In this document: positions 4,357 through 37,576 of the stretch, in pieces | Layout: each line of letters opens with the position of its first letter | Position numbering within the stretch: position 1 is the first letter of the stretch | Assembly: GCA_902702965.1 (NCBI GenBank) | Contig: CACRXP010000017.1 | Coordinates: 2,263,343-2,327,342 of the forward strand | Origin: Spirometra erinaceieuropaei | Lineage: Eukaryota > Platyhelminthes > Cestoda > Diphyllobothriidea > Diphyllobothriidae | Direction: 5' to 3' | DNA length: 64,000 nt | Program-made: the position numbers and the translations under genes | The notes under the pieces: model-generated | Told to the model about the DNA's origin: nothing | What the model saw: the letters and a program-made list of their open reading frames with translations, nothing else | The model's database searches: none

Positions 4357-4398
4357 GTCTCTGATGACGGATTCGAGCGAGAATTTGAAACGCCAGGC
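4357..4398 (+). ncRNA. Hammerhead-like motif, PLE-2 5' end, cleavage site changed
   Basis: GUCU-CUGAUGA, a stem II region, then GAAAC and GCC-AGGC. The expected GUC cleavage triplet reads GCC, which breaks the A-U pair of stem III, so this copy is predicted inactive. Stem I (GUCU with AGGC) is intact. Confidence 0.65.
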
Positions 4399-4749
4399 CA
4401 ATAAATTCCTTGTTCCAGTGATCGCTACTTCGTCTTCTGAACTCCTTCCTGGAACTCGCTTGGTCGTTTCTATCAGAATTCTTTTGGTCGCAAAGCGATC
4501 CGATCGGCTCTACGGTTTGAAACCTTTGCCCTTCAAGAATCGATTACATATGCGCAGACGACATGTCTGCACAGGTGTCTCGACAATAATGTGTTGCCGA
4601 AGTGTGCTTCATACAAACCTCCGGTTAACACAGAGCTGGGGAGACGCGCAGTACCTTAGCACGGCAGCCGGATGATTCGAGTGATGCTTCATGACTGTCG
4701 CCTAAGGATCCGCAAATACCGTCAGAGGATTGACCAAGAGAAGCAGGGT

Positions 4750-6545
4750 GCTGCGTGTTCATGGGCGAGGACGGCACAAAACTGCTTCAGCCGAGGCTGG
4801 CCGAACGAACCGGTGAACAAACAGCGACACGTGAAGCAGCCTTAGAGAGCAGACTTTGTAAGCTGTCTGCTCCAATGTCATCCAAGAACGACAAACTGGT
4901 GCACAACTTTTCGCCAAAGGAGCTGACGGAGAGACAAACGTAGGTGATACGGCGTGAGGCCTCATTCAACACAGCCGGTGCCAAACTTGCTAACAGGATT
5001 GCAGCGGTGGAATCAATCCTCAGCCAAACGGGAGCGCTAGACGAAACGAAGAACGTAATTCGACACCAAGTGTCCTCCCTCCTCATGGCCCATAGGCCGT
5101 GCGAAGTGCTTTCCAAGGTCGAGCGCGATTTACTTAAGGAATACAGGGCCGACAGCGACCTCATGAAAACGCTGACACGCGAGATTAACGCGACGCTGTT
5201 GGCAATGGAGAACTCAGGTGCCATATCGCCAATCGACCGTCGCATGGTGAGCGGGCAAGAATCGGCCCTTGGTCCGATTTTGCGGTCTCCGAAAGTATAC
5301 AGAGAGGGCGCTCCTCTACGGCCTATCTTATCACTAAAGGGCACGCCAACCTACGGACTTGCAAAGTGGCCGTTTCGACGTCTCAAATTTCTGACTTCCA
5401 ATTCGAACACCATAATCAGCTCGTCAACAGAATTCTTGGAGAAACTTAAAGCAGCAAGTCTCCTACCAAGCGACATCATAGTTTCCTTGATTTCACGTCC
5501 TTTTTTACTTCCATCCCACAGGACCTGGCATTCGACACCATCGAACTACCTCTACCAGAGAAATACGACAAAACGGAAAATCGCCTTGCACATTCGTAAA
5601 TCACCCAACTCCTGAAGTTCTTTCTTAAGACGTACTTTACGCTCGACAGAACAATCTACGAGCAGGTTAAATGCACGTCAATGAGTACGCCGATTTGGGG
5701 ATTCATAGCTGAGGCGGTCCTAAAACGGCTGAAGTCGCTGGTTTTCCGACACCACAGACCGAAATTCTGGGTTCGGTATGTGGATGATACATTCGTCGTC
5801 ATCAAACGGGATTAGGTGCTGACATACAAAGACCATCTCAACGCCGTCTTCTCTGTTATTCAATTTACGATGGAGGAAGAAGAATACAACCAACTGGCCT
5901 TCCTGGATGTCCTCGTCTGCCGCAAAGATTGTGATCGCCCAAAAAGCAAAGTGTTCAGGAAAGCGACAAATACTATGCAAATACTGAACTTCAACAGCAA
6001 ATACCGTCACAAAGGCAGTTGTGTAAGAGCGCTATACCGGCGCTTTGAGACGCACTGCAGTGGAAGGGAAGGCAAGGTTGTTGAATTACAATGATTTGGA
6101 CGGGTACTGAGAGCCACTGGCTACCAGCCAAACTTTGTCAACCGGTGCGTACGCAGACAAAGCCGCAAAACCAAATGCAGCCTGCGCCAAATTTTGGTGA
6201 GCCCTTCCGTATCTGAGGAACGTGTTGGAACCCCCCAGTCGTATCCTTACTCCACTTGGAGTTAGGGTTGCACACAGGCCGGAAGCAACCATCAGGCACC
6301 ATGCCATGAGGCCGAAAGACCCACTGCCACGACAGGACACGCTAGGAGTCGTTTGCTGGATTTGACGCAGTTGCTGACAAAGTAATTACTTCGGAGAAAC
6401 TGGAGAAATACTCCGGACACGTATGACTGAGCACGCAGCAGCGGTGAGGAGGAGAGACGCCAGCCTACAGACATCAGCTCACTGGACGAGACCTGGCCAT
6501 ATTTTCAAGTTTCAAGAGACCGAAATCCTTACAAGGGGTGACGCT
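4750..6545 (+). pseudogene. PLE-2 reverse transcriptase / GIY-YIG protein, decayed
   Basis: Plus-strand frames, broken by several frameshifts and stops, follow a PLE protein in order. The N-terminal region includes KLVHNFSPKELTE near 4890 and, after a frameshift, a segment from 4944 with LRPILSLKGTPTYGLAKW. RT motif A reads LDFTSFFTSIPQDLAFDT near 5487 with its Asp kept. Motif B is worn (TSMSTPIWGFIAEAVL near 5680). Motif C, YVDD, is at 5777-5788. The thumb region follows, then a GIY-YIG domain near 6320-6470 with internal stops but a readable NYFGETG and TEHAAAV. The element acts through target-primed reverse transcription; this copy cannot encode a full protein. Confidence 0.8.
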
Positions 6546-6652
6546 CTTTAATTTGGCACTGCTTGTCGCTATTCGACTACTGTGGCGGTTCTAGACTGAA
6601 CAATGTGCAACGCAACACGCACGTTCCGGACCTGCTCGGCCATGATAATTGC

Positions 6653-6860
6653 AGTGCGCATACGGTCCACGGCAGCCACGTGCTATAAATACTGCACTCC
6701 TGGTGCCACCATCACCTGTATTTGCGAATGTCTCTGATGATGGATTCGAGTGAGGATCCGAAACGTCAGGCAAATAAATTTCTTGTTCCAGCGATCGCAT
6801 CTTCATCTTCTGAACTGCTACCTGGAACTCGCCTGTTCGCTTCTATCAGTATCCTAACTG
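6653..6860 (+). repeat. 3' pseudo-LTR of PLE-2
   Basis: Direct copy of 4281-4485. It contains TATAAATA at 6684-6691, the best-preserved hammerhead-like motif of PLE-2 at 6730-6771, and an A-rich AAATAAATT segment just after the predicted cleavage site. Confidence 0.75.
6730..6771 (+). ncRNA. Hammerhead ribozyme-like motif, PLE-2 3' end
   Basis: The strand reads GUCU-CUGAUGA-U, then stem II GGAUUC/GGAUCC with a GAGUGA loop, then GAAAC-GUC and AGGC. Stem I is GUCU with AGGC (one G-U pair). Stem III is two pairs, C-G and A-U, with no loop, and GUC is the expected cleavage triplet. One extra U lies between CUGAUGA and stem II in this and most other copies, which departs from the textbook core. 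PLE pseudo-LTRs in other animals are known to carry hammerheads with a minimal stem III. Confidence 0.7.
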
Positions 6861-7124
6861 TCAAACATCCCACGCTGCGTCAACGAGCTTAGAGGAGGAC
6901 AGAGACAGGAGGAATGCATAGTTGCGCTGTTTGAGCAAACTGTGTGCGGCTGGTGAGGCCTGTGGTATCTGGCAGTGCCTGATTTCTGCGCGATTGATAA
7001 AATGCCTGACTGCGAATAATCGGTGCGGGGATGCTGAGTGTTAGTTTGACTTCCGTGTATTGTGGCTCATCAGTCAGGCCCTGCGGTCCAGAATGAGGAT
7101 TGGAGTGGAAGTGTCGCATCATAT
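6861..7124. other. Unassigned DNA between PLE-2 and MITE copy B
   Basis: No gene is seen. About 7045-7080 (TTTGACTTCCGTGTATTGTG) resembles 8020-8045 beyond the MITE (TTTGATTTCCGTGTGTGG) in the same orientation, so the MITE may have landed in a duplicated or repeated sequence. Confidence 0.4.
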
Positions 7125-8020
7125 ACAGTTGAGTGACCGATTTCACTAAATGATGGCTGAAAATCTAGAAAGCGTTCTCGAGTAGGAAGGATTGTTTAAG
7201 CGCGGTTGGAATATTTTGGACTCGGAAAGGTGTCAGATTTTGAATACACTGCCTTTTATTCTTCGGTAGAAACCGCACATGGCAAAAATGACTACTGAAT
7301 TGGCATGCATGTTTCCCATCGATTTTCGATGGCTCTGGAATCGCGTCATCTTTGAATTTTATTCTCGAAGAAGGACTATACATACGTTTGAAAAGTTCCT
7401 AATTATGAGATATTTTAAGACCGCTCAGAGTCCATTTATATAGCATCGTACCTGCCCTTTTACCACTGCTTCTCATGAAATGTACAACAAAGTCCGCATC
7501 CACTGAAATTTTTAATGGACTCTATACGATATCTCTTTAAAGACATAAAATATGTGATTTTCTTTACGCGGAAGCATGCACCTTGCAGACTGAAATTATT
7601 AAGCGCTTATGCAACGACCGATCGGGCACTAAATTTTTGGACAAGTTAAAAACGTTTTTAAAACCTAATTATACTTCTTATCGAGCATAAAACATAGAGA
7701 CGATGTGATTCGCTATCAAACGACTTTAATAAAGCATATTTTATTCGTGGTTTCTATAAAATGCATTTCAATTTGCAAGACCATCGAAACTCAATGGTAA
7801 AAATGCATTCTACTTAAGTAGACGTTTTTTACCGAACACATTTCGTACAGAAGATTGAAAAGCAGTGTGTCTAAAAGCTGACATTCTAATAATTCTGAAA
7901 TATTATAGGATTATGTCGCATAATAATCGGTAATACAACCGCGCCTAAGTAGTTATTCCTAATCTAAAACAAACTTCTGAATTTCAGTCATCATTTTATG
8001 AGATCGGTCACTCACTGTAG
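7125..8020. mobile_element. Foldback MITE-like element, copy B
   Basis: The ends are inverted repeats: CAGTTGAGTGACCGATTT at 7126 mirrors the right end CGGTCACTCACTGTAG near 8005-8020. The inner repeat arms continue for over 150 bases (for example TTTAAGCGCGGTTG near 7197 and its counterpart near 7940). The central AT-rich part matches copies A and C (CTAATTATGAGAT and CTCATGAAATGTA-AACA). There is no coding frame. Confidence 0.75.
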
Positions 8021-8980
8021 TTTGATTTCCGTGTGTGGCTGGTAAACCAGTGCATCCGGTTGAATCACGCCCAAGCGGTGATCCTGTGTGTAGCATGGGT
8101 GTGATATCCAACTGAATGTGGACATTTAAAGAACGAGGAAAAACCCACAGGTGTGCCAAGAATACTAATTATGCAGCCGATGTCGACCAGCACAGCAAGC
8201 TGGATTTCACCTCAAATCACTAGCACGACGTACCCTCGCTTGGTTACCAGGACCTGCTATCCGCGAACGAGTCCTGTGAAGGGTGACCGACTAACGGTCA
8301 GTGTACAGGGCTATGGTTTCTGCGGTCGTTCCTGAAAAATGCCAATAACTCGGTTTGATCAAGAGACTGGCTGTGAATAGCTACGGTTAACCATGTTTTC
8401 TAGCCCAAATGATCTGAACGACCAGCGACTCGACGATTCGCCTAGTGATTTTACAGCCCCGATAGCTAACACGAAGTTTAATCAAAAAAATGTTTTATAT
8501 TCAGGAGAAAAATATTTTGTAAAGGCATTTTCAAAAACCATAATCATGGAACTTGTGGGTCTTTGGCTGAGCCATTTGCATGTGCCGCCATTATGCCACC
8601 ATTAGCAATGATTGCGAATGAACAACAAAGAAGATACCAAATGCAAAAGATGGTAAAGATAAAGAAGAAGGAATATGGACCCATCTTTATGCACTTACTA
8701 AGAACCATGATGAGCTCACTGGACCTGGATTTGGTAAACTAACACAAAATATCCGCCTTTCTCCTGGATGATGGAATCAAGCGCATGCATTTAAAAAAAA
8801 TCAAAAGGGCCTCTATCCCAACCTACCGTCTAGTGAACGAGGTTAGGAGAGCGTTTTAGATCCTTCTGAACTAGTGTCGGCCGTATATGTCAGTTGAATT
8901 AATATAAGAAAGATAAAAATCTACAAAAGGGATTATGATTAGAGGAAGGAAATTAAGTCAAAATACAGGATCAGGAGTTC
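8021..8980. other. Unassigned DNA
   Basis: No recognised feature. Two short plus-strand frames (8153-8335 and 8393-8605) have no detectable motif and no convincing splice sites, and are left uncalled. Confidence 0.4.
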
Positions 8981-9236
8981 CTAATCAGCGATTTTGTAAG
9001 CAGTCTTGTGGAACATGCAATAGTTGTTCGTCAAGTAAGTGAACACAGCGCAACTGAGTGGGCACACATTGATCAGCCCAGCAATCGGCCCTGTCCTAAC
9101 CATTTCCTTTAGCAATGCCAAATCAAGAGGCTTGCGAACGGAAGTAAGGGGGCGTGAAGGCGACAGAATCGCTGGAACAAAAGTTTTATTCGTCTGAGGC
9201 TTCGCATTTCTGTCCGAACGTATCATCGGAGGCAAT
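8981..9236 (-). mobile_element. PLE 3'-end fragment, minus strand
   Basis: The minus strand from 9236 contains a worn hammerhead-like core (CCGAUGAUACGUUCGG, then GAAGCCUC-AGAC) followed by GAATAAAA and a subfamily A-like tail. The left limit is uncertain. It abuts the plus-strand RT sequence of PLE-3. Confidence 0.5.
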
Positions 9237-9675
9237 AGCCAATACGGGCAGTTCAAGCAAAAGGCACTGTAGTACGCGAAGTTAATGCTACCTTGTTGCC
9301 CCTGGAGAACTCAGGTGTAATAACGCCGACCAACAAAGGCATGACGAGGCACCAAGATACGACTTTGGCCTGATTCAATAGCCTCGCTAAGGTAAACAAT
9401 GAGGGCAATCCTCTCGGCCCCATCCTGTTGCTCAAAGGTATTCCAACGTATAAAATAGCAAAGTGGTGGTTCCGCATCTCAAGTTCCTTGCCACTGAGTC
9501 ATACACTACGGTCTCTTCTTCTGTATAATCCCCGGAGAAACTCAAAGAATTAAACTTCCTTCCGAATGAGGTCATGGTTTTTTGATGCTACGTTCACATT
9601 TACTTCTCTTCCGTAGGATCTGGCGATCGAGACTACCGAGCTGCTTCTTCAGAGCAAATCTTCTTGGACACGCTT

Positions 9676-9935
9676 AACTCTAGAATGGTATTAACGACAA
9701 AGACAAGGGAGACTGGAATGGCCATTTGTGATTTATTAGCCGTCGTCAGCCAGCCATACCCAAGCCCGAAGTGTGGGACACCCGAGCCATGAACTCTTTA
9801 CCTGTTAGTTTAGATGTCCACGCTCTACACACTGGGCCACGAGGCCGTTGCCTTGTCGGTTTTCGATCGGAATATACAATGGTAGGGGGCGCTCACCGAT
9901 CGTTCATACGGAACTCACTCGTTCCGTTGTGCCTT
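9676..9935 (-). mobile_element. tRNA-derived SINE, family S1, minus copy
   Basis: On the minus strand, GGCCCAGTGTGTAGAGCGTG (box A-like) is followed by a worn box B and then the S1 body GGTATGGCTGGCTGACGACG and CCAGTCTCCCTTGTCTTTGT. The body matches S1 copies at 9936, 15625 and 28030. It is inserted within PLE-3 RT sequence. Confidence 0.6.
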
Positions 9936-10135
9936 GGGCTTGGGTATGGCTGGCTGACGACGGCTAATAAGCCTGAAATTGCCATTTCAGTCTCCCTTGT
10001 CTTTGTCTGTAATACCACTCTGCCTATATATCATGCGCCGCTGTGCGGCTACTGGTTGGGCTCGAGAGGGAACCCCTAAGGCACAACGGAACGAGTGATT
10101 TCCGTATGAACGATCGGTGGGCGTCCCCTACCAAA
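9936..10135 (+). mobile_element. SINE family S1, plus copy
   Basis: GGTATGGCTGGCTGACGACG at about 9943 begins the S1 body in the plus orientation, so the two copies in PLE-3 lie head to head. Its last 55 bases (CACAACGGAACGAGTGA onward) are an inverted repeat of about 9880-9935. Confidence 0.55.
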
Positions 10136-10410
10136 GCTTAACTCCCTCAGCTCTTACAGTTCTGTCTCAAGACATACTTCATGCTTGACAGGATGGTCTG
10201 CGAGCAGGTGAAAGGCACACCAATGGGATTACCGATTTCGGGAATCATCGCCGAGACGATCCGGCACGGGTTATAGTCGCTGGTCGTCTAACACCACAGA
10301 GCGACGTTCCGGGTTTGCGCTAACAATCAGCGTTGCCAGTAGAAACAAAAAAGCGAGCTCCAGGAAACAGCCATGAATATGAAGTCGCGGTCATTATAAC
10401 AGGGGCTTTA

Positions 10411-10455
10411 TTCGTCTGACGTTTCGGACTCCTGTTCGAACGCAGTCCCCAAAGA
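10411..10455 (-). ncRNA. Degenerate hammerhead-like motif in inverted PLE end
   Basis: GAAACGUC-AGAC followed by GAATAAAGCCCC is kept on the minus strand. The CUGAUGA box has been lost, so it is not expected to cleave. Confidence 0.45.
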
Positions 10456-10469
10456 CACCACCAGATACC

Positions 10470-11020
10470 GGCATTGCGTACACACAAAGGCCTTTGTTCG
10501 GATGAGCTGGAGAAACCGGAAGACTTATCCGCACGCAATTAAACGAACATATGACCGCCGTTGCGAGAAAGGACACCAGCTCTTACGCTGCGGCTCATTC
10601 GACGGCATCCGGCCACAGATGCGAGTTCGACGAGATTGAAATCATCATTAGAGGTGAAGACCGCATGAGCCGCAAGCTGCCTGAATCATGGCACACTGTC
10701 TCCAGTCTGTTAACAGGTGCAACGACCTTCCCATTCCATACTCGGTGCTGAGACTTTGCGGAGTAATTAGCCACGCTGGGAACGCACAGTCAAACACCGA
10801 CGCCACAGTCGGTGGATCGCATGGTCGATCAATCATCAAACCAAAATCCAACACCCGTGATAAAATTGCAACGATTAACGACTCGAATATTGACCATCGA
10901 ACAATCACATCAAGTGCAAAGAGCCCTTATGAACGGGGAGCCGTGAATTTTCGTAGGTATGCGGTAGCAGGGCGACTGTATCCAATAAATGCTGCAGCCC
11001 CTTATGCATGCGTCACCCGT
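10470..11020 (+). pseudogene. PLE-3 GIY-YIG and C-terminal region
   Basis: The plus strand reads a worn GETGRLIRTQLNEHMTAVAR-like segment, then AAHSTASGHRCEFDEIEI and the subfamily A tail (for example a worn PYSVLRLCGVISHAG near 10735). The GIY part before it is missing because of the inserted PLE tail. This is a fragment of the endonuclease domain and the region after it. Confidence 0.65.
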
Positions 11021-11030
11021 ATCTGATTTT

Positions 11031-11072
11031 GTCTCTGATGATGGGTTCGAGCGGGAATTCGAAACGACAAGC
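11031..11072 (+). ncRNA. Hammerhead-like motif, PLE-3 end, mutated
   Basis: GUCU-CUGAUGA is intact, with stem II GGUUC/GAAUUC. The cleavage region reads GAAACGAC-AAGC, so both the U of the GUC triplet and stem I are damaged. Predicted inactive. Confidence 0.6.
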
Positions 11073-11150
11073 TAATAAAACTCACGTCTCTTTCTTCACG
11101 GCGACTTCCTGGGACTCGTCTGTTTGATTCTTTTGAGAACGACTGGTCTC

Positions 11151-11369: not shown

Positions 11370-14190
11370 GTTTGTGTCGGGGGACGAGCGTGATCTCTCA
11401 TCACTCTTGCTCATTTTGGAACATAAATATAACAAGGTCCTTTTTGAAGCTTTGCATCGATGGTGACATCACAAAATCTACAGGGAGAGCTGTTCATAGT
11501 TTGACCACTCTGACAGAGGAGACCAAATTCCGCACATCTAGTCAAGACTGTGTAATACCCAGGTGACCTCGGAGGTTAGTCGTGGTAGCGAATTCAAAAA
11601 GTCCTCAAAGGCCAGTTTGCAGACCACTGTTCTATGCGGAATGCCTACAAGAGATCTCTTGGTAGTTGTCTATAACTCAAAGGGAAGAGGTTCAGATTTA
11701 TTAGGCGGGTTGCGTAATGATAGGAGAGTTGACCCCAAACCATCATCGTGATTGTCCTCTTAACACTTTCGAAAAAATTTTAATCTTGTGTCATACATGG
11801 TTTCCAGGCTTGTGTGTCGTTTTCTAAGTGCGGCCGCAGGAATGTTCCAAAAGTCTTTGTGTAAACGTATTCGTCAAAATCCATAATTGCACGCTTGATG
11901 GCGCACAGTGCAGCCATTCCGCTTTCTGCCACTGTCGAACAATTTGCGGACGGTTTTAGGGAGTTCGTCGTCAGTGCACCGAGGTCCCTTTGGGATTCGA
12001 CGTCTCGTAAAGCTGCACCGTTCAGAAAGTAGCCTCTTGTTCTGACGGATCTGAGGGTTCTACCTAGGCGAGGTACGCTACATGTGCTAACGTTGGACCA
12101 CACGATCCGACGGTTTGGCCATTCCTTCAACCTATTTAGGTTCATCTGCAGTCTGTCTTCGTCGACAGGATCTCGAACTACATTCTATATCTTTATGTCG
12201 TCTGCAAACATTGCTACTTCGCAGTCCAAAGCTCTCGAACAATCGTCCACGTATGGTAGGAATGAAATGGATCCCAGTACTGACCCCTGGGGGACATCCC
12301 TCTCGATTACAACAAGATCTGATTTTCCTTTACGATGCACACGACCTGCTGTGAACCCTCAAGGAAGTTTTCGATCTATTTGAGGAAGTTGCCTCTGGTA
12401 CCTATTTTTAAGCTTGAACAGCAGCCTCTACTTTGTTATACTGTCGAACGCCTTCTGAAAGTCAAAAAAACTGTGTGGACGGCGTTCTGGTATTCGAGAG
12501 TTCTGATTCGGCTCTGCAAAGAATGCGGTAAGGTTGTCTTGCAGGATCTTCCTTTCCGGAACCCATGTCGGCATTTCGATAGCAAGTCGTGAACTTCCAG
12601 GAATCGTATCAATTCACTCCCCATGATCCTCTCCAAAGAATGCATATCAAACGTATGGACCTGTAATTCGTTGTTGATGCCCCGCTACCTCCTTTGTATA
12701 GCGGAGTAATATGTACTAACATCCAGTCGATAGAAAGTATTTCAGTGTCATATGACCTTCCAAAGAGCATCGATAAATACTCAAAAGGCGCAATGGCAAG
12801 TTCCGTGATAAGCTTAGGCGGAATCTCAGCTGGTCATGGCGACTTAGATTCCTTCACTACCCCCTAATTCTCTTCGGACAATGTCTTCTGGGAAGGGTAT
12901 ATTACCTATGCTTGGGTTGGGCAGTTCTTCTGTGGATTGAGGAAGGAACTTGCCTCGTTTGTGTGGACTGATTGGGAAAATTCTGAAAAGTGCGCATTTT
13001 TGTCCCTGCTATCAACAATCTCAAAGTTCTCGGTAATCCTTATTAAGGAGGTTTGATGTCGATTACTTGCAATTCTTCTGAGGTGGCTGTGGGGAAATTT
13101 TGGGTTTTGCGTTGCTTTTTGCAGCAAATTCCTCTCGAATTACCGGCGTGCATTTATGATCATGCGTCCCGGTTTTGTCCTCTGTGACTTGTAGGTGTTT
13201 AAATATTCAACTTGCCTATTGACACAGTCTTTTCTCCACAATTTGCACTTCCGGCTAATCTCTTTCTTTAGGTTGCCATTGTGCCATCGAGGGCGTTTGT
13301 TTAGACTTGAAATATTAAGTGGACAGTGGTTGTTGATAAGATGCAGAAGGACATTCTTGGACAAATCCCACTCATGATTGGCAGTAGTTGTAAACACTGA
13401 ACTCCAGCCCAGACCGCATAAGTCTGCCCTCATGTGATTGAAGTCTCCCCGCCAAATGCTGCCTCTTTTCTCGTGTAGAGTATGCAAAATGGAGAATAAC
13501 GAATAAGCACAACATTGTCATTTTGGCTAACGGTCGGTATGCAGATGACCTCGTCTATGCTCTCTGATCTATTTGTGAAAACTAGATGCAGTCTGTTAGC
13601 TATTTGTCCTTCAGGTATTCTCGTTGGAAACATAACATGTTGTGTGAGGAACGTCCCTTTGATGTTTTTTTCAGCAAACGAAAGTCGAAAATCGATTTTG
13701 GACCTGGCGCTTGAACAGTGTTCCAGTTAGTCCCCGGTGCGTTGAAGTCGTTCAAGACTATGACATTATGTCGACTGGAAAATTTCTCCAACTGCTCCAA
13801 ACGATGTGTGCCCGCCATTTGGTCTCTCCAAGGTGGTTGGTATATAGTGAGGCCATCGGGACACGGGGAACAAGTAGCCTTGATAGTCAGCCAAATAGCC
13901 TCCATGCTGCATGCAAACTTAGTGGTATTTGCCGACACTGTCGGGTCTTCCTTTATATACACAACTATGCCACCACCCTGACGATGTTTCCTGTCCCTCC
14001 GATAAATTTGGCCTCCGATTAAGGTTATTTCGCTATCCCTATCGTTTTCGAACAGCCAAGTTTCGGTTACGGTTATAACATCCGGAGGAAGTTTGGCAAG
14101 GCAAAGTTTCAGCTTGTCCAGTTCCGGCATTAGGCTTCGGGCAGTTGTATACATGCAACTTAATTTTGCGCCAGTCCATTTTCTGGATGC
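11370..14190 (-). pseudogene. LINE endonuclease / reverse transcriptase ORF, decayed
   Basis: Starting near 14190, the minus strand reads LPPDVITVTETWLFENDRDS and GGGIVVYIKED, the conserved blocks of an APE-like endonuclease. The frame stays open to 13600. After frameshifts, RT blocks follow: a worn LERIMGSELIRFLE then SKCRHGFRKGRSC near 12600, VPQGSVLGSISFLPYVDD near 12290 and FADD at 12197-12208. The post-RT segment has LNGAALRDVESQRDLGALTT near 12010. The C-terminus near 11400 keeps a worn SFKKDLV-like ending. Stops and shifts make it non-functional. The protein would nick DNA and copy its own RNA at the target. Confidence 0.8.
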
Positions 14191-14245
14191 ATTTGTCAAT
14201 GTTGAGGGCATAACTGCTTTGTCGCGGATGTTATTCCTACTGGCT
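11370..14245 (-). mobile_element. Non-LTR retrotransposon (CR1/Jockey-like LINE), minus strand
   Basis: A nearly full ORF2-like protein is readable on the minus strand: APE-type endonuclease (about 14150-13600), a linker, reverse transcriptase (about 12900-11800) and the C-terminal segment (about 11750-11380). It lies directly downstream of a PLE end (PLE-4), and one open frame crosses that junction. The clade is judged from the order APE then RT, VPQGSVLG and FADD motifs, and the C-terminal LWNSLP-like block; this is inference. Confidence 0.8.
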
Positions 14246-14344
14246 CGTTCAGCTGCCTGATGTGTTTCAATTAAGTCGATTGCTTTGGTCCCAGGAAGCG
14301 GTTCTGAAGAAGGAGACACGATCGCTGAGACAAGAACCTTTTTT

Positions 14345-14387
14345 GATTGGTGCTTCAGACTCCCGCTCAAACTCATCACCAGAGACA
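14345..14387 (-). ncRNA. Degenerate hammerhead-like motif, PLE-4 end
   Basis: GUCU is followed by CUGGUGA in place of CUGAUGA, and GAAGCACC replaces GAAACGUC. The stem II outline remains. Predicted inactive. Confidence 0.5.
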
Positions 14388-14425
14388 AAAGCAAAAACGA
14401 GTGGTTCATGCACAAGGGGCTGCAG

Positions 14426-14433
14426 TATTTATA
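14426..14433 (-). promoter_or_regulatory. TATA-like box in PLE-4 end
   Basis: TATAAATA on the minus strand in the conserved context CCTATAAATACTGC. It lies upstream of the open frame that runs through the PLE tail into the LINE. Confidence 0.5.
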
Positions 14434-14804
14434 GGATGCAGTCGTCATGCTACCGCATACCTATGAATATTCACGGTTCCTCCCTCCATCAGGGATCGTT
14501 GCACATGGCGTATTTGCAATTTGATGGCCAACATTCGCGTCGTTAATTGCTGCAATCCCATCAAGTGTCTTGGATGTTGGAATGAAAATTGCTAAACCAT
14601 CCGACCCACAGACCCTGGCGTTGGGAAAAGGGTTCATCTGTGCGCTCCCCGTGAGGCTAATTACTCCGCCTAGACGAAGTCTCAGCACGCTGTATTGAAT
14701 GGGAAAACCATTGCACTTGTTAATAGACTGGGGGCCCGTAAACCGTGACTCAAGCAGCTTCCGGCTCACGCGGTCGTAACTCCTTGCGAGAATTTCGGCC
14801 TCGT

Positions 14805-15419
14805 CTAATTTATATATATGGCCGGATCTCGTCGAATGAGCCGCAACGTGAGGGCTGGTGTCATTTCTCTCACTGCTGCAGCGTGTTCGGCCATTCGCGT
14901 TCGGAGCAGTCTTCCGGTTTCCCTGACGTAGTTGCTTTTTCCGCAACTGCATGAGGCCCGATAAACGACTTCAGACGTTTCTTGCCGTAGCAGTGGGTCT
15001 TTCGGCTTCATTACCTGACACCTGATGGTTGCATGCAGTCTATTTGCACCTCCAACCCAAAGTGGTGCGAGAAGGCGGCCGACAGCTTCCGAAACGCTCT
15101 TGACATACGGAAGTGCTCGCGAAAATTTGGTGTCCGTGCGGTTAGGTACCTTGTTCCTTTTTTGTATGCACCAGTTGACGAATTTGCGCGGGTAGCCACT
15201 GTCTTTGAAGACCCGTCGGAGATGTTGTGGTCTGGCAATATTATCCTCCGGCAGTGCGCTCCAACTCGCTGATAGAGTCTTAACACAACTGATTTTATGA
15301 TTGACTGGGTAATTGCTGATGAAGTTCAGTATTTGCGCCGTCTTTATCGCTTTCCTGAACACTTTGCTCTTTAGGCCACTAAAAACTTTGCTGCATACCA
15401 GGGCATCTAGGAAGGCCAA
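14805..15419 (-). pseudogene. PLE-4 RT thumb and GIY-YIG domain
   Basis: One minus-strand frame stays open for about 204 codons. It begins AFLDALVCSK (segment just after RT motif C), passes FVNWCIQKRNKVPNRTDTKF and reaches VVYRASCSCGKSNYVRETGR with RTRMAEHAAAV. This is the best-preserved GIY-YIG domain in the window. The glycine of the YVGETGR block reads R here (YVRETGR), which may affect function. The frame then shifts, and the remaining C-terminal region continues in another frame to about 14470. There is no RT core, so this is a truncated copy. Confidence 0.8.
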
Positions 15420-15430
15420 CTGGTTGTTCT

Positions 15431-15624
15431 GATGGTATCTGTCACAAACTCATTTGTGTTAGAACGCTCGGCGTGTCCAATGATGACAAATTCAAAGTTT
15501 AGATTTCCCTTTTAGACCAAAACGCATTTATTACTGAGTAATTCTCGTTTGGTAATCTGGACGCGAGATATGTTCCAGATCGTTTCATTTGGCGTTAGAA
15601 TTCGGACGGTCACAATCGACGGAA
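15431..15624. other. Unassigned DNA
   Basis: No feature is recognised between the truncated end of PLE-4 and the S1 SINE. Confidence 0.4.
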
Positions 15625-20259: not shown

Positions 20260-20302
20260 TAGTCTGACGATGGGCTGGGTAATCACTTTCGAAAATTTAC
20301 TA
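20260..20302 (+). ncRNA. Hammerhead-like motif, PLE subfamily C end
   Basis: UAGU-CUGACGA fits the CUGANGA core. GAAAAUUU-ACUA follows after a weak stem II region. Stem I pairs UAGU with ACUA perfectly, and stem III is A-U, A-U. Both differ from subfamily A (GUCU/AGGC and C-G, A-U) while keeping pairing. AATAAA follows at 20302-20307. Stem II here is poorly paired, so activity is uncertain. Confidence 0.6.
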
Positions 20303-20330
20303 ATAAAGTGCTTACTTTTCCCAAAGAGCC

Positions 20331-21865: not shown

Positions 21866-22545
21866 ATACATATATATACTCAGGAATGGGCGCACAGCGA
21901 TCCATTGTCTTCCCGAAGCAAACAAGCTTCGTATGGGTTATAGGGGTCACGATCAGGCAATCAACTACCATGCCGAAGTCGGCCAAGGTATGATAGCAGA
22001 GGGGAAACGACATAGTTTGAGGGTAGTTTGATACAGAACTGTCTCGGATTTGTTTGTCTTTATTCAACTAACCATAATTCTGACTACTAGCTGGGCCCGG
22101 AAACACAAACATGCGAACAGACACACCTGAGGCAGCTGGTTCACCATTGGAGTCTACCAGATGGGTTATAAGCACTTCATCGAATCGGAGTTCATCAGTG
22201 TCCCGCCACCTGTCTTTCTCTGTCGCCGTAAATCGGGTATTTACTCACTCAGGAATAGGCACACACACACCTCCATAGTCTTCACGTGGCAAACAAGCTT
22301 CGCATAGGTTAACGGATTCAAGAACAGGCAACCAACTACCAGGCCGAAGTCGGCTAAGGTATGAGAGCAGAGGGGAGATGACAGAGTGTGGAGTAGTTTG
22401 ATACAGATCTGTTCCCGGCTTGTTTAAATTCATTCAGTCAATCATAATATTGACCACCAGCTTGCACCGGCAGAGCAAACATGCGCAAAGATACACTTGG
22501 CGCAGCGTTTCGGATCCTCACTTGAACCACTCATCAGAAACAGTA
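21866..22545 (-). repeat. Tandem SINE-like repeat with hammerhead-like ends, about 370-base period
   Basis: Two tandem units match each other with an offset of about 370 bases (CAGGAATGGGCGCAC at 21881 with CAGGAATAGGCACAC at 22250; GCCGAAGTCGG at about 21972 and 22343). On the minus strand each unit holds a tRNA-like segment with CGGCCTGGTAGTTGGTTGCC and, in the right-hand unit, TTCTTGAATCCG (box B-like). Hammerhead-like sequence precedes the units at about 22545-22500 and, more worn, near 22190. Size, tandem order, an internal promoter and a hammerhead resemble the schistosome Sm-alpha repeats and animal retrozymes. Confidence 0.6.
22500..22545 (-). ncRNA. Hammerhead-like motif at head of tandem repeat
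   Basis: On the minus strand, GUUU-CUGAUGA is followed by stem II GGUUC/GGAUCC and GAAACGCU-GCGCC. The core boxes are intact, but GCU replaces the expected NUH triplet. Confidence 0.55.
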
Positions 22546-22554
22546 GTAAGACGT

Positions 22555-22690
22555 TTCACCCACAGTTTCTGATGATGGACTCAAGTGAGAATCCGAAACA
22601 TCAGGCGAATAAAGCCCTTGCTCCAACAATCGAATCTCTCTCTCTTAACAACTAGTTCCTGGAACTGGCATCTTAGCTTGTGTCGGCAAT
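22555..22690 (+). mobile_element. PLE 3'-end fragment, plus strand
   Basis: It holds a hammerhead-like motif, then GAATAAAGCCCTTG and the subfamily A tail down to CCTGGAACTGGC. It lies head to head with the motif at 22500-22545. Confidence 0.6.
22565..22606 (+). ncRNA. Hammerhead-like motif with AUC cleavage triplet
   Basis: GUUU-CUGAUGA-U, stem II GGACUC/GAAUCC, then GAAACAUC-AGGC. AUC is an allowed NUH triplet, but the change breaks the C-G pair of the two-pair stem III. Confidence 0.6.
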
Positions 22691-24114: not shown

Positions 24115-24147
24115 GCAGGCACGATCAGTTGGACAGTAGTTTTATTG

Positions 24148-24192
24148 ACCTGAGCTTTCGAACTCAAAGTGGAGTTCATCATCAGGGACTGC
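24148..24192 (-). ncRNA. Hammerhead-like motif, outer end of left arm
   Basis: CUGAUGA-U with stem II GAACUC/GAGUUC (six perfect pairs), then GAAAGCUC-AGGUC. Stem III is G-C, A-U in place of the C-G, A-U of subfamily A, which keeps pairing. CUC is an acceptable triplet. The first pair of stem I is a mismatch. Confidence 0.6.
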
Positions 24193-24432
24193 TAGAGTGC
24201 AGCAACGTGTGAACATTTGTATCGTAGTTCCATGCGCAGGGGGGCTACGTCCGTGGTTAGGTCTGGTTTGTGCCGCCTGTCACACGGTGGTCCCCCGGCG
24301 TGGTAACGCCGTTTTTACTTTGCGACGATGTGAACTGCGCCACCTGGTTGCGTGGGCGCAGGGCATAATTACCCGCAGGCAAATCCATGTGTTGAAAAAG
24401 GAGACACGATCGCCGGGACAAGGGCTTTATTA

Positions 24433-24474
24433 GCCTGACGTTTCGGTTTCCTACTCGAATCCATCATCAGGGAC
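24433..24474 (-). ncRNA. Hammerhead ribozyme-like motif, inner end of left arm
   Basis: GUCC-CUGAUGA-U, stem II GGAUUC/GGAAACC with one mismatch, then GAAACGUC-AGGC and TAATAAAG. The cleavage triplet GUC and the loop-less stem III are intact. The mirror copy is at 26117-26158. Confidence 0.65.
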
Positions 24475-24479
24475 AAAAA

Positions 24480-25616
24480 AGCGGAAACGGGTGTGTCTAT
24501 TGATAAGATTGGTGTCCGATACGCACGCCTCCAACAGTTCTCGTCCCGTCTTGTTGCCGGCTCGCGCCAATATCCGCATGTTGGCGAAGTCGAACTCATG
24601 GCCTTCCTCCAACGTGTGAGTGGCGACTTGAGATAGTGAGTCGCCTCTTCGAACGGCCCGTTTGTGCTCAAGTATTCGCGAGATGAGACGTCGTTCTGTC
24701 TGGCCTGTGTAGTGTCAAGGACAGTTTTGGCACGGGATTTGATAGACTACGCCCGACTGCTCACCTGCGTCCAGCCGATCCTTCATTTTCATGATCCTGC
24801 TGCACATTCTGGCTGCCGGATTATGAGCGATGTCCACGCCTAGCTCTGACGCAATGCGTTCTGTAGCCTCGGAAACATTCTCTATGTACGGTAGGGAGTG
24901 CCAAATTTGTGATTTTGCTATTACTTTTGTCCGTCCTGTGTGCGTGCGTATGCAGCGATTGATAAAACTATTTGGGCAACTGTTTTTTGTTAATTAGTCC
25001 CGTAGCTGCCGTAGTTCTAGCATCCTTACTTCCGACTCGCTTCAGTGCGGCTTTATCCGGTCGAAATGCGCCCTAACACAACCCTGTTTGAGCACAAATA
25101 GGTGCTTGCTATGGTAGTTTACGACCTGGGTTGTATTGTTCGCCTTTCTGTGCACTGTAGTGATGAGTTGACCGTTAGGTGTGCGCATGATGACCACGTC
25201 AAGGAAGGGTAGTTTCTCATCCTCCTCGTCTTCTTTTGTAAACTGAATGTCGGGCAATGTGCTGTTAAGCAAAGCTTGAAAACCCGATAGCTTGTCCTTT
25301 TCGATATTGACGAATGAATCGTTCACGTTTCGGCGCCAAAATGCAGGTTTTTAGTGGCTGAAAGCAATTTTTCCAACCAATTCCGCAACTAGATTGAATA
25401 TTGGGGAACCCGTGGGTGTTCCTTTGATTTTTTCGTATGTTCTGCCGTCGAATGTGATAAGGTTCGTTGGCAAAATGCAAAGAACTGCATTAGACGCTGC
25501 ATCCATAGCCGAACTGTCGTTTCGTCGTACTTAACTTCGAGGAGTTTGCGTAACATGTCGCACGCCAAGTCTGGTGGGTTGGACGAGAACAGTGAGACGA
25601 CATCGAAGGATGACAT
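24480..25616 (-). pseudogene. PLE-B reverse transcriptase and GIY-YIG protein, decayed
   Basis: Minus-strand frames read RT motif A (MSSFDVVSLFSSNPPDLACD near 25610). A worn motif B (KGTPTGSP-like) lies near 25430. Motif C has changed from YVDD to NVND (NVNDSFVNIEKDKLSGF near 25320). LPFLDVVIMRTPNGQLITTV follows. After a stop and shifts, the GIY-YIG domain near 24760-24640 reads SGVVYQIPCQNCP, then HYTGQTERRLISRILEHKRA. Loss of the first catalytic Asp of motif C makes the RT inactive. The endonuclease is well kept apart from one stop. Confidence 0.8.
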
Positions 25617-25799
25617 GAATTGGTCGGGTCGAATAGTTTTTCCCCGAATATCGACAAGAAATTGGGAGGCCGAATTGACTGACGTAACAGAGCCCTCTCG
25701 GAGAAAAGTGAGTTTTCAGGACATCCACTTGGCTAAGCAGTATGTGGGGCTGCCTTTCAGGGCAACGATTGGCCGGCAGCTGCATGCGTAGCAGGATCA

Positions 25800-26135
25800 T
25801 GAAAATGAAGGATCGGCTGGACGCAGGTGAGCAGTCGGGCGTAGTCTCTCAAATCCCGTGCCAAAACTGTCCTTGACACTACACAGGCCAGACAGAACGA
25901 CGTCTCATCTCGCGAATACTTGAGCACAAACGGGCCGTTCGAAGAGGCGACTCACTATCTCAAGTCGCCACTCACACGTTGGAGGAAGGCCATGAGTTCG
26001 ACTTCGCCAACATGCGGATATTGGCGCGAGCCGGCAACAAGACGGGACGAGAACTGTTGGAGGCGTGCGTGTCGGACACCAATCTTATCAATAGACACAC
26101 CCGTTTCTGCTTTTTTGTCCCTGATGATGGATTCG
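25800..26135 (+). pseudogene. Second GIY-YIG domain of PLE-B (right arm)
   Basis: This reads the same protein as the left arm, with SGVVSQIPCQNCP (the YQ of the left arm is SQ here) and GQTERRLISRILEHKRAV. Retention of the same internal stop before HYTGQT in both arms indicates that the duplication came after the inactivating change. Confidence 0.7.
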
Positions 26136-26158
26136 AGTAGGAAACCGAAACGTCAGGC
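26117..26158 (+). ncRNA. Hammerhead ribozyme-like motif, inner end of right arm
   Basis: Mirror of 24433-24474 with identical core boxes, GUC triplet and AGGC. Confidence 0.65.
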
Positions 26159-26371
26159 TAATAAAGCCCTTGTCCCGGCGATCGTGTCTCCTTTTTCAAC
26201 ACATGGATTTGCCTGAGGGTAATTATGCCCTGCGCCCACGCAACCAGGTGGCGCAGTTCACATCGTCGCAAAGTAAAAACGGCGTCACCACGCCGGGGGA
26301 CCACCTTGTGACAGGCGGCACAAACCAGGCCTAGCCACGGTCGAAGCCCCCCGTTCACACTTTGCTGTACT

Positions 26372-26416
26372 CTAGCAGTCCCTGATGATGAACTCCAGTT
26401 TGAATTCGAAAGATCA
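26372..26416 (+). ncRNA. Hammerhead-like motif, outer end of right arm
   Basis: CUGAUGA-U, stem II GAACUC/GAAUUC, then GAAAGAUC-AGGCC. The triplet AUC is acceptable, but the G-C pair of stem III seen in the left arm is lost. Confidence 0.55.
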
Positions 26417-26465
26417 GGCCAATAAAACTACTGTTTCATTGATCGTGCCTTCATCGTCTATTAAA

Positions 26466-28295: not shown

Positions 28296-28299
28296 GTAA

Positions 28300-34132: not shown

Positions 34133-34417
34133 TCAGAAACACCGGTTTTTCCGCCGATGGCTTGCACATCGGTCATAGACAAGACTGCAGGCGTTCACCA
34201 ACCTCTGTCCGACCAATTGTCGGTGCTCTCCAGTCAGATCAGTCAGACGCGCCGAGTAGACGGATACCAGCACGTAAGTAGGACCGTGGGCACTATAAGC
34301 GAAAGGCAAGTCCACTTCGATCCAGCGTTCACCGGAGGAGGTGAGGATATGTTGAGGGTGCAGGGCGTGGCCAGACCACCCCAGCATGGAATGTGCGGCA
34401 AAGTGGCAATAATCCGT
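34133..34417 (-). CDS. NDNF: NDNF-like gene, predicted last coding exon
   Basis: The minus strand has a pyrimidine-rich acceptor ending CTTTCAAACAG just before 34417. A 94-codon frame then runs to a stop at 34133. It reads TDYCHFAAHS and later GPTYVLVSVYSARLTD. In the NDNF/nord family, the last fibronectin-III domain has a C-x-x-F-H-S block and a Y-x-L-x-V-Y strand shortly before the end, which this matches in order and spacing. The exon opens in phase 0, as expected from the preceding exon. The protein is a secreted glycoprotein of the NDNF family; its function in flatworms is unknown. An alternative is that the coding part ends earlier at a hidden donor. Confidence 0.55.
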   Translation of the reverse strand, partial: TDYCHFAAHSMLGWSGHALHPQHILTSSGERWIEVDLPFAYSAHGPTYVLVSVYSARLTDLTGEHRQLVGQRLVNACSLVYDRCASHRRKNRCF

Positions 34418-35641
34418 CTGTTTGAAAGAAAGTATGCAAGAATTGCTCTGTTGGTGAGGAAAAATGCAAAGAAAATCGACGTCCTACAAGTTATTAAGTG
34501 TACTGTAAGTTTCTATAAATAAATTTAACTGATGACTGAAAACACGCTCATGTAGGTAAACTATCTGACTACTCTGGTTTGCTTTTTATGTCAATTTGGA
34601 TGCCTTTGAGGGTCAAAGCTTCTGGCAGATGCACTCGCGGTTTAGTTGAATCGTTGGATTTCTCAAGAATGAATGCTGATGCGAACTTAATGAAGTGTCC
34701 GCTGAAAGTTAAATATTTCGTACATCTTCGTTTTCTTAGTAGAAAAACGAACATATGGTGCGCTTGACAGCTTTGCCTGCGTAGAAGAATGCATACAATT
34801 TTACGGCCATCGTATTAAGCCATTGATTGTTGACTTTCTTGGAATATCTGCGGTCACGGTAATGGTCACTATAGAAAAAGTGCAGGATTGAAAATTGCAT
34901 TTTAATTAAACTTACGTTTACTTTGATACTCCCAGACCTTACGGCTCACTACTGCTTACAAATTTTAAAACAGGTAGCTTTAAGTATGAAAAAGTTCTTT
35001 AGGTTTTCCATCTTACGTTATTTTAGAGAACGAAACAGCTAGATTTTGAAACTAAGGACTTAGATCGGCGGAACAAATATGGCTCAGAAACTGATTTCGT
35101 AAAGGAGAACGACAGAGTCCTGTAAATAAGCGACATTTGTAATGATTTATTTATTTATTTCCGACTCTCAAGAATCAAAAGCACCCAAATCTCAAGCTGA
35201 ATTTATTGATAATCTGTTTAGGTCTTACTAAAAATCATCCTGCCTTCCAAAGCATATCAATCGGTATTTGCACATGCAATCTGTGATTAGGAGATATTTT
35301 TTGATACGTTTAGTGCGTGATCTGTACCGTACTAGGGGGTGCAAGTTTATTGCAATATCAGATTTAAATGTTTACCGCTAGCTTTGAACAATGCCAACGT
35401 AGAAAATTTATTTTACATTAAGTTTATTTTGTTTTAAACTATGCATTCGGTCAGTAGTTAAAATAAAAATGAACTGATGTTGGATTAAAATTACTTTCAG
35501 CAAAGACGTTCAGCTCAAAACTTGTCTTTTTCGTGAATGTCGTTTTGGTTTGAGGTGACACCGACCATGTTTTGCCGACTGACCATCCAAATATATTTGC
35601 AACGTCTTAAAGACCGTTTGCAATCTAGAAGCCTGACAAAC

Positions 35642-35957
35642 CTTTTTCTGCATTTCACGAAATAAGCCGTTTCGTAGGGCTGGGGTCATCGTTTTTGGCA
35701 CCGGAAGTGTATAGATCCAAAGTCTTTGCCGTTCTGGGTGCACCGCGAGGACAATAGACAGACGCTGACGTTGACAAGAAACGTTAAAGAAAAATCCTTC
35801 GGAAATTTGAGCGGCGCCTGTACCAGAACCATTTCTGACTTCCACGAGGCTCCAGTAGGCTCCGTTGGGGGCAGTCTCAGCCCCGCTGTCTAAGGTCTCG
35901 TTGGACCCATTTTTGTCAAGGAGGGAGATGTTCTTGGGAACCTTCTCGACAATATAG
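35642..35957 (-). CDS. NDNF: NDNF-like gene, exon with second FN3 domain start
   Basis: The minus-strand frame reads YIVEKVPKNISLLDKNGSNE, then SEGFFFNVSCQRQRLSIVLA and ERQRLWIYTLPVP. The spacing from the Cys to ERQRLWIY parallels the C...ERNKFCIY segment of vertebrate NDNF as I recall it. There are N-glycosylation sites (NIS, NGS, NVS). The donor is AAAAAG/GTTTGT at 35642. The acceptor at 35957 keeps phase with the previous exon. A stronger-looking acceptor (GTTCTGTTTTCAG, exon from 35976) would break phase unless an extra exon lies between. The frame remains open past the donor to 35510, so the 3' boundary is the least certain of the gene. Confidence 0.6.
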
Positions 35958-36239
35958 CTTACAAGGGGTTCAATGACTGAAAACAGAACGTAAAACGTGA
36001 TGTTAGAAATTGTGCAGCCTTGCTAGACAGATTAATGAAAGCAGGCGAAGTCTGTTATCCAGTGAGAGTTCATCTTGAGAGGATAGAACAAAGCAATTAA
36101 AAGAAGGTCGCATTTTCGAGTGTTACCACCTCTCGGTCATGTGAGTCCTAGATCGTAGACGGAAACGTGCCATAAAATAATGAGAACGCAATATGCTCTA
36201 GGCAAAATGCAAGTTGGGATTTTCTGTCTGCAAAATTGC
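35958..36239. other. Intron sequence of NDNF-like gene
   Basis: Nothing is recognised between the exon at 35642-35957 and the inverted PLE-5. Confidence 0.5.
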
Positions 36240-36249
36240 TACCAGATTC

Positions 36250-36640
36250 CAGGCTCTAATTGGCCTCTAATTGACTGTTGAGACCATCAACTGTCTCTCT
36301 TCTTTCACCAAAGTAATCCGAATTCGCCAAATGGCTGTTCTCTTCCTCCTCCATCGTAAATTGATTGTTCGAGAAGACCGCATTCAGACGTTACTTGAAT
36401 GTCAGCAGTTGATCCCCGTGGATAATAACGAAGGTATCATCCACATATCGGGCCCAAAACTTCTGTCTGTGGTGTCGGAAGAGCAGCGACCCTAACCATT
36501 GCAAGACCGCCTCGACGATTAATCCCACAATCGGCGAACCCATTGGTGTGTCCTTCACCTGCTCGTAGAGTGTCCCGTCGAACGTGTGGTACGTCCTGTG
36601 ACAGAACGTCAGAAGCTGAACTTAAACAGCAACCACCCAA
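36250..36640 (-). pseudogene. PLE-5 reverse transcriptase, inverted segment
   Basis: The minus strand reads TYHTFDGTLYEQVKDTPMGS followed by PIVGLIVEAVL (motif B). RYVDDTFVII follows (motif C, YVDD at 36436-36447), then FTMEEEE. Motif B is close to the intact GTPMGSP form. The segment is cut on both sides. Confidence 0.8.
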
Positions 36641-36654
36641 TCAGCCACAAAGCC

Positions 36655-37515
36655 AGATGTGAGAGGACGCTCGATCGGCGTGTTGAAACGCCCTGGGGTG
36701 AGCAGGAGGACACGATTGTCCAACTACAATAACTCCGACGGGTCTTCAAAGCCAATGGCTACCCGCGCAACTTCGTCAACCACTGCATACGCAAAAGGGA
36801 CGAAAGGCCTAACTGCACAGACACCAAATTTCAGCGAGCGCTTCTGTATCTCAAGAGCGTGTTGGAAATTGTCGGACGTCTTCTCGCACCACTTGGGCTT
36901 GAAGTTGCACACAGACCGGAAGCAACCATCAGGCGTCAAGTAATGAAACCGAAAGACCCACTGCAACGACAAGAGACGTCTGGAATCGTTTTCCGGATCT
37001 GGTGTAACTTCTGACAAAGTAATTACGCCGGAGAAGTCGGAAAACTGCTCCGAACACGAATGGCCGAACACGCTGCAGCGGTGCGAAGAAATGACGCAAT
37101 CTGTCAGGTTGCGGCTCATTCGACGGCTTCCGGCTACACATTCAAATTCCACGAGACCGATATTCTCGCAAGAGGGGACAACCGCGTAAGCCGGGAGCTG
37201 ATTGAGTGCAATGACGTTCCCCTTCAATACTCGGTGCTGAGACTTCGCCTAGGCGGAGTAATTAGCCACATGGGGAGCGCACAGGTGGACACCTTTCCCA
37301 ACACCAGGTTCGGTGCGTCAGATAATAGAGCAATCATCACATCAACGTTCAACGCAAGTGATGGAATTACAGCAATTAACAACGCGTATGTCGGTCATCA
37401 AACAGTCATCGCACCAAGTGCCACTATCCTTGATGAAGGGGGAACCGTGAATATTCATAGGTATGCGGTAGCATGCCGATTAAACCCTATAAATACTGCA
37501 GTCCCTTGTTCATGA
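36655..37515 (+). pseudogene. PLE-5 thumb, GIY-YIG and C-terminal region
   Basis: The plus strand reads RRVFKANGYPRNFVNHCIRK, then RQVMKPKDPLQRQETSGIVF. A damaged CxC follows (an internal stop after CNF), then QSNYAGEVGKLLRTRMAEHA. One frame continues without a break from about 37060 through AAHSTASGYTFKFHETDI and YSVLRLRLGGVISHMGSAQV to a stop at 37515. The GIY part is worn and the YIG-equivalent reads NYAGEVG. Confidence 0.75.
37488..37495 (+). promoter_or_regulatory. TATA-like box in PLE-5 end
   Basis: TATAAATA in the same CCTATAAATACTGC context as PLE-4, 40 bases before the hammerhead-like motif. Confidence 0.5.
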
Positions 37516-37534
37516 ATTACCCGTATCTGTTTTT

Positions 37535-37576
37535 GTCTCTGATGATGGGTCCTAGCAGGAATCCGAAACGTCAGGC
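37535..37576 (+). ncRNA. Hammerhead ribozyme-like motif, PLE-5 end
   Basis: GUCU-CUGAUGA-U, then a stem II region GGGUCC/GGAAUCC that is only partly paired, GAAACGUC-AGGC and TAATAAAG. Core boxes, GUC triplet, stem I and two-pair stem III are all intact. Confidence 0.65.

Follow-up and report, generated by a model that had tools for sequence, protein, structure and literature searches.

What are the short motifs resembling hammerhead ribozymes that lie at the ends of Penelope-like elements (PLEs) in the tapeworm Spirometra erinaceieuropaei, and what could a self-cleaving RNA do there? We addressed this question in a stretch of 64,000 nucleotides (the window, G000:C17:2263343-2327342) and across the genome that contains it (758.7 Mb, 1932 contigs); in the portion of PMC8166898 available to us, which describes the S. 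erinaceieuropaei v2.0 assembly, LINE/Penelope sequences are given as 10.41% of the bases. Our analysis indicates that the motifs are very probably type I hammerhead ribozymes with a diminished stem III, carried in the pseudo-long terminal repeats (pseudo-LTRs) of a large PLE population of this diphyllobothriid tapeworm. Hammerheads of PLEs are already known as a class from other animals, as a preliminary description of this DNA had stated and as the accessible text of PMC6155905 and PMC7761336 bears out, and the tapeworm motif is a further case and not a new kind; what it adds to the class are stem III families, a start codon within the core in a flatworm, and evidence from insertions.

Core boxes, stems and element context

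Across the genome, the exact motif CTGATGATGG-N10-16-GAAACGTC had 8542 matches against 1 for the reversed pattern, indicating that the boxes are real. A second pattern, CTGANGANGG-N10-16-CCGAAACGTC, which leaves the base between the core and stem II open, gave 8260 matches against 0 for its reverse; the first 100 of these copies all measured 34 bases although 30 to 36 were allowed, and N7 was T in 99 of them. Within the window, CTGANGA-N4-30-GAAA was observed 18 times where 5.13 were expected, a number reached by 0 of 100 shuffles. A model built on 10 window copies yielded 22 window matches at E<=5, and a model built on 74 genome and window copies yielded 13 at E<=0.01 (Table 1), 11 of which had themselves been rows of that model. 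The at least thirteen sites first proposed thus have their counterpart in 13 model matches, but every box is present in only 7 of them; in the sample of 87 aligned hits, partly picked for intactness, the complete core was seen in 59. Forty regions had been chosen for holding an exact motif. Among the sites named as best preserved, those at 6730, 24433, 26117 and 37535 were recovered, although 24433(-) and 26117(+), as the two arms of a single inverted repeat (98%), cannot count as independent, and both carry mismatches, A.A in stem II and C.A in stem I. The site at 20260 proved poorly preserved, with E = 0.26 in the 10-copy model and no place in the 74-copy list, though its GAAAAUUU and stem I UAGU/ACUA fit the architecture.

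Pairing was compared with shuffled and slid structures. In the 10 window copies 88% of the cells pair, and both-side changes occur in 6 cells against 2.3 in shuffles. In the 74 copies (68 distinct rows) 91.8% of the cells pair, compared to at most 53.7% in slid structures; the covariation score over the distinct rows is 0.218, against 0.140 in shuffles and at most 0.127 in slid structures, and both-side changes affect 20 cells against 3.7 in shuffles, a count reached by 0 of 500 shuffles. Alignment A3 omits L042:2078 and window:10452, and its source list did not include the window sites 22537(-) and 16635(-). Stem I consists of 4 bp around C3 and the cut site (GUCU/AGGC, GUCU/AGAC or GACU/AGUC; 90.4% of cells paired), and stem II, adjoining the core, is paired in 92.6% of cells, with both-side changes in 4 of its 6 pairs. 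Free stem II cells pair in 202 of 216 cases in 54 distinct copies among the matches listed, the best of 2000 shuffles giving 185, and a second family (L045, L059, L063, L064) has stem II GGAAAC/GUUUCC, with stem I GACU/AGUC in 2 of its 5 motifs. A sample chosen without the exact motif was also assembled, comprising 21 of 25 copies retrieved by 30 bases of downstream sequence only, with 4 indel-shifted copies left out. Mean column identity in these 21 ungapped copies is 0.38-0.48 over the upstream 70 bases, 0.71-0.93 in the core and stems, 0.65 in loop II, 0.78-0.89 over the next 40 bases (30 of which are the search string), and 0.40-0.51 beyond.

The link to PLEs was examined through protein matches. 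Window 37015-37515 is matched best by proteins of Spirometra erinaceieuropaei and Sparganum proliferum (the top hit with 70% identity over 77%), and at lower ranks by Dibothriocephalus and Schistocephalus. Of 39 matched proteins, two (P0022, P0037) carry the GIY-YIG domain PF01541, and the YVDD motif of reverse transcriptases was seen, whereas a Pfam scan of 10 broken window pieces gave neither a reverse transcriptase nor a GIY-YIG match. Mapped back, the 39 proteins delimit seven pieces of PLE coding (Table 1), the end of each being followed or overlapped by a same-strand motif; some also match the opposite strand, which we take for gene models read antisense. The claim that the motifs always lie at a PLE end in the sense strand was too strong, as 7 of the 13 lie directly 3' of own-strand coding; among the other six, 24140(-) and 26370 follow 24425(-) and 26109 at a distance of 261-285 nt. 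Stem I and II covariation, the genome-wide count and the coding context together make hammerhead identity and the link to PLEs well supported. Searches of phage and plasmid collections and of PDB gave no match, and CTGATGATGG...GAAACGTCAGG, looked for in viral contigs, was found in none.

Stem III, the extra base and the start codon

Stem III was confirmed to consist of two pairs without a loop, as first described, in the form of the self-complementary tetramer ACGU or, in other families, AGCU or AAUU. A double hammerhead needs such a self-complementary tetramer. Where GAAA-XY-UC is loop-less, pairing of X with Y requires two hammerheads; closure of stem III is impossible in the monomer, whereas the tetramers permit it in a dimer. 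Departures from CG were collected with CTGATGANG-N12-18-CGAAA-(not C)-N-TC, which had 1325 genome matches against 9 for the reversed pattern. Among the first 100 of these, XY was AG in 24, GC in 23, TG in 19, GG in 13, AT in 5, GT in 4, AA, TA and TT in 3 each, AC in 2 and GA in 1. A family-1-like stem II (at least 9 of 12 letters in agreement) accompanies AG in 23 of 24, GG in 13 of 13 and TG in 16 of 19, and these classes look like decay of CG; other stem II types accompany GC in 20 of 23 (16 distinct sequences) and AT in 4 of 5. Judged from these copies, XY at the level of families is CG, GC or AT, each of which would form a self-complementary tetramer with A15.1 and U16.1. Between the two options raised at the outset, a dimer or an unusual core, action as a dimer is therefore favoured by the stem III families, together with the monomer hammerhead fold, which is less stable than a CUGAUG/CGUCAG hairpin in 7 of 8 window copies.

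The second option had leaned on an extra U between the core and stem II in nearly every copy. This base is indeed T in 81 and C in 4 of the 87 aligned hits, and T in 97 and C in 3 of the first 100 genome copies of the pattern that leaves it open, but as a sign of an odd core it found no support, being shared with phage hammerheads, replaced by C in one family and used in the main families as the U of an AUG. In a first set of 20 viral loci the extra base was T in 15, C in 1 and A in 1, with none in 3, and a further 14 loci lacked it; several of these loci are near-duplicates, and a full hammerhead is not established for each. Three-stem phage hammerheads, as read by eye, carry the extra U without a start codon, and the tapeworm family with C (35 bases) has ACG in place of AUG in 4 of 4 copies among the matches listed. 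For both reasons we dropped the idea that the extra U exists solely to make AUG; it is a tolerated insertion that the PLEs here use for AUG, and not proof of new chemistry, because phage hammerheads share it and one family reads ACG. A viroid hammerhead with an extra core nucleotide is in print, according to a title cited in PMC6155905.

An AUG made up of A9, the extra U and G10.1 is present in 65 of 76 motifs, most of them fetched by a pattern fixing it, and A6-U7-G8 supplies a second, in-frame AUG. The frame reads MDSS..NPKRQANKALVPAI or METSVFPKRQ, and the cut falls after base 28 counted from A9, in codon 10. Upstream, TATAAA occurs within 90 bases in 31 of the 76 motifs, compared to 7 of 304 control windows, and in 29 of those 31 it lies 41-55 bases ahead of C3. 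No long protein bearing this N-terminus was found at E<=0.001 among 108 candidates.

Insertions and the possible part of cleavage

Neighbouring motifs less than 5 kb apart formed 33 pairs (L042:2078 was left out of this survey), of which 19 point outward, 5 inward and 9 in the same direction. Exact target duplications of 11-15 bp were present at the expected ends of 7 of the 19 outward pairs (L029, L038, L041, L051, L056, L059, L061), which are thus single insertions, against 0 of 342 mismatched pairs. All seven have one end 76-80 bases and the other 112-129 bases past C3, ranges chosen after viewing the same 19 pairs, and the outermost letters may be element sequence. Three further outward pairs had 8-base matches (at least 8 bases also matched in 26 of 342 null pairs), and the remaining 9, including all 4 window pairs, had matches of at most 7 bases. 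The short and long 3' ends appear as if two reverse transcriptions had begun, on both strands of the target, from separate sites.

Inside the insertion copies examined the cut site is unbroken, the short end lying about 43 nt past it. Of 73 copies (48 with the exact motif, 25 unaffected by that criterion), 0 start at the cut site; 4 flagged automatically as motif-less show remnants by eye. With the site intact and no copy starting there, the templates of the sampled copies were uncut RNA, and cleavage as the maker of the 5' ends of insertions was rejected.

Several observations weigh against a ribozyme. The fetching of exact motifs and the kinship of copies overstate the conservation and shuffle results; the count of both-side changes does not stand out under sliding (19 for the +1 slide, compared to 20); and the 21 copies found without the exact motif pair in 105 of 126 stem II cells and 60 of 84 stem I cells. 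To these are added the stabler hairpin, the family reading ACG for AUG, and non-complementary XY in some of the 87 sampled hits (CA 5, CC 2, CT 1, against CG 74). Rfam models found no hammerhead in the window, neither at gathering nor at E<=10; as Rfam also misses phage hammerhead loci (no match at gathering for L001-L013), this negative carries little power, and Rfam is a detector of hammerheads, not their definition.

That the motifs are dead remnants, of ribozyme ancestry with no present role, seems rather unlikely to us. The sampled insertions bear no trace of cleavage, and according to the available text of PMC11167929 the Anolis ribozyme is dispensable for insertion in vitro, but the whole core persists in the 59 sampled motifs, many picked for that, and stem covariation among families implies that the source copies were under selection. 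A simple CUGAUG/CGUCAG hairpin around stem II, bound by an element protein or marking the start of reverse transcription without any ribozyme, would account for its own stability, for pairing in 94.9% of its cells and for the position of the short insertion end; we nevertheless consider it very unlikely, as the letters that it leaves unpaired are exactly the hammerhead core, the AGCU families break two of its pairs yet keep a self-complementary stem III, and 0 of its 6 pairs show both-side change, with no excess over shuffles, a weak point given that most columns were fixed by the choice of copies. It is highly improbable that the letters are kept as code for the N-terminus of the PLE protein (MDSS..PKRQANK): the frame is intact in most copies, and third positions are more variable in codons 10-20 (0.96 against 0.74 and 0.77 bits) and 1-3 (0.81 against 0.46 and 0.60), both without a significance test, but they are not so in codons 4-9 (0.57 against 0.58 and 0.74), and changes in stem II preserve its pairs yet give different residues (DSS..NP to ETS..FP). 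Hardly credible, finally, is the reading of tandem pairs 260-285 nt apart (window 24433/24148(-) and 26117/26378(+), and C1:598087/598347) as small retrozyme-like non-autonomous elements, since the members of the window pairs differ in family and adjoin PLE coding, and one such tandem occurs among the matches listed (the first of 8542).

If the motifs are PLE hammerheads acting as dimers, two of them, in a tandem RNA or in two RNAs, would be joined by pairing of ACGU, AGCU or AAUU, and the resulting double hammerhead would cut after NUH, perhaps aided by the element protein as in Anolis. The cut in codon 10 would part the start codon from the open reading frame (ORF) and, being 5' of the start of reverse transcription, would leave the cut RNA unable to template the upstream body. 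Because the cut would separate AUG from the ORF and the body from the reverse-transcription start, we favour cleavage as a brake or as a switch that sorts translated RNA, template RNA and read-through tandem RNA, and not as the maker of inserted ends. More tentatively, initiation and self-cleavage may be mutually exclusive, with stem III tying cutting to a second hammerhead, so that the hammerhead could possibly serve as a translation and processing switch that senses RNA dimers and removes them from translation and templating. For the role of PLE hammerheads, more than 8000 exact motifs in several families allow comparative tests; stem III by itself supports dimer cleavage, and a start codon in the core, as in Anolis, lays the conflict between translation and cleavage open to direct test.

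Known systems and the sites of the window

Minimal type I hammerheads of PLEs were reportedly described by Cervera and De la Pena in 2014 and by Lunse, Weinberg and Breaker in 2017. In the parts of PMC6155905 and PMC7761336 at hand, such hammerheads have a missing or minimal helix III, lie in pseudo-LTRs and are proposed to cleave as dimers; the tapeworm motifs resemble them in these features and in the core, and differ in host lineage, in the extra U and in having several stem III families. The Poseidon PLE PAc of Anolis carolinensis, as far as the available text of PMC11167929 describes it, has an ORF that begins at stem II and a cut 26 bp after the start codon; cleavage occurred only when protein was added, insertion was independent of cleavage, and no RNA-seq reads ended at the cut. 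The tapeworm elements are alike in the ORF start at stem II, the cut near the start, two reverse-transcription start sites and a tail, whereas protein-assisted cleavage was measured in PAc and would only be presumed here. Penelope of Adineta vaga shares inverted pseudo-LTRs, target duplications (8-10 bp there), a tail (there on one inverted copy) and a pseudo-LTR reaching into the ORF; the word hammerhead is absent from the accessible portion of PMC3846280, and the target-flanked tapeworm insertions have the motif at both ends. Metazoan retrozymes have type I hammerheads and tandem repeats in common with the tapeworm elements, which are coding, whereas retrozymes are small and non-coding in the text seen of PMC7761336.

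Phage hammerheads (L001-L013, L071, L072; stems read by eye) share CUGANGA, an extra base, stem II and GAAA-CGUC, and differ in a full stem I and a looped stem III, with no retroelement or ORF start in the core seen there. The IMG/VR viral contigs L001-L013, L071, L072 and L076 hold three-stem hammerheads by eye, with stem I for example CCCGC/GCGGG or CCCGU/ACGGG, with or without the extra base.

Table 1. Hammerhead motifs and PLE features in the window (model match, 74-copy model; core, complete when all bases are present)
Position	Strand	Model match	Core	PLE coding	Feature
3374..4198	-				PLE coding piece
3483..3524	-	3475-	incomplete	directly upstream, own strand	Decayed PLE hammerhead, 3' of same-strand GIY-YIG coding
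4357..4398	+	4349+	incomplete	downstream, own strand	Hammerhead on 5' side of 4361-6734 PLE; U16.1 lost, to C (GCC); start ACG
5495..6542	+				PLE reverse transcriptase (YVDD) and GIY-YIG region, broken frames, flanked by two sense hammerheads
6684..6689	+				TATAAA, 50 nt ahead of hammerhead C3
6730..6771	+	6722+	complete	directly upstream, own strand	Intact PLE hammerhead motif: stem I GUCU/AGGC, CUGAUGA, extra U, stem II GGAUUC/GGAUCC, GAAA, loop-less stem III ACGU, cut site GUC
6740..6742	+				AUG from A9, extra U and G10.1; frame MDSSEDPKRQANKFLVPAI
9192..9233	-	9184-	incomplete	no mapped adjoining coding	Decayed PLE hammerhead, mutated core
10379..11121	+				PLE coding piece
10414..10456	-	10406-	incomplete	opposite + coding piece	Decayed PLE hammerhead, mutated core and one inserted base
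11031..11072	+	11023+	incomplete	directly upstream, own strand	PLE hammerhead, U16.1 lost, to A, at end of PLE coding 10379-11121
14345..14386	-	14337-	incomplete	directly upstream, own strand	Decayed PLE hammerhead, 3' of PLE coding 14460-15434(-)
14460..15434	-				PLE coding piece
20260..20302	+				Doubtful PLE-derived relative; stem III AAUU, stem II poor
22500..22541	-				Hammerhead, back-to-back partner of 22565-22606; GUC and stem I 3' side lost; in 10-copy model list, not 74-copy
22565..22606	+	22557+	complete	no mapped adjoining coding	Hammerhead, intact core, AUC triplet, without clear adjoining PLE coding
24148..24189	-	24140-	complete		Other-family hammerhead: stem II GAACUC/GAGUUC, stem III AGCU
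24433..24474	-	24425-	complete	directly upstream, own strand	Intact-core hammerhead, 285 nt upstream of same-strand 24148-24189; inverted-repeat arm
24478..25616	-				PLE coding piece
25778..26125	+				PLE coding piece
26117..26158	+	26109+	complete	directly upstream, own strand	Counterpart of 24433-24474 hammerhead, opposite inverted-repeat arm
26378..26419	+	26370+	complete		AGCU-family relative (stem III AGAU), 261 nt downstream of 26117-26158
36583..37461	+				PLE coding with GIY-YIG C-terminus, upstream of hammerhead 37535-37576
37535..37576	+	37527+	complete	directly upstream, own strand	Intact-core hammerhead at PLE 3' end; frame MGPSRNPKRQANKALVPAI

Beyond the 13 matches, 22492(-) and 16590(-) reach a score in no model but the one that contains them, and 9954 is in neither model's list. 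The segments 24148-24474(-) and 26117-26419(+) each hold a pair of hammerheads of different families 261-285 nt apart, the inner parts of the repeat being 98% alike and the outer parts less so, by eye. Back-to-back motifs with only 23-40 bases from C3 to C3 were seen in L037, L051, L059 and window 22500-22606, as if both cDNAs had stopped near the presumed transcription start. An ORF at 13600-14460(-) matches endonuclease/exonuclease/phosphatase (E 5.3e-5, just under the Pfam cut-off) and reads on from a PLE 3' end; it is probably an adjoining non-LTR element. Further along the window, 56554-57141 is an inverted repeat with 260-base arms that are 90% complementary, with 68 bases between them.

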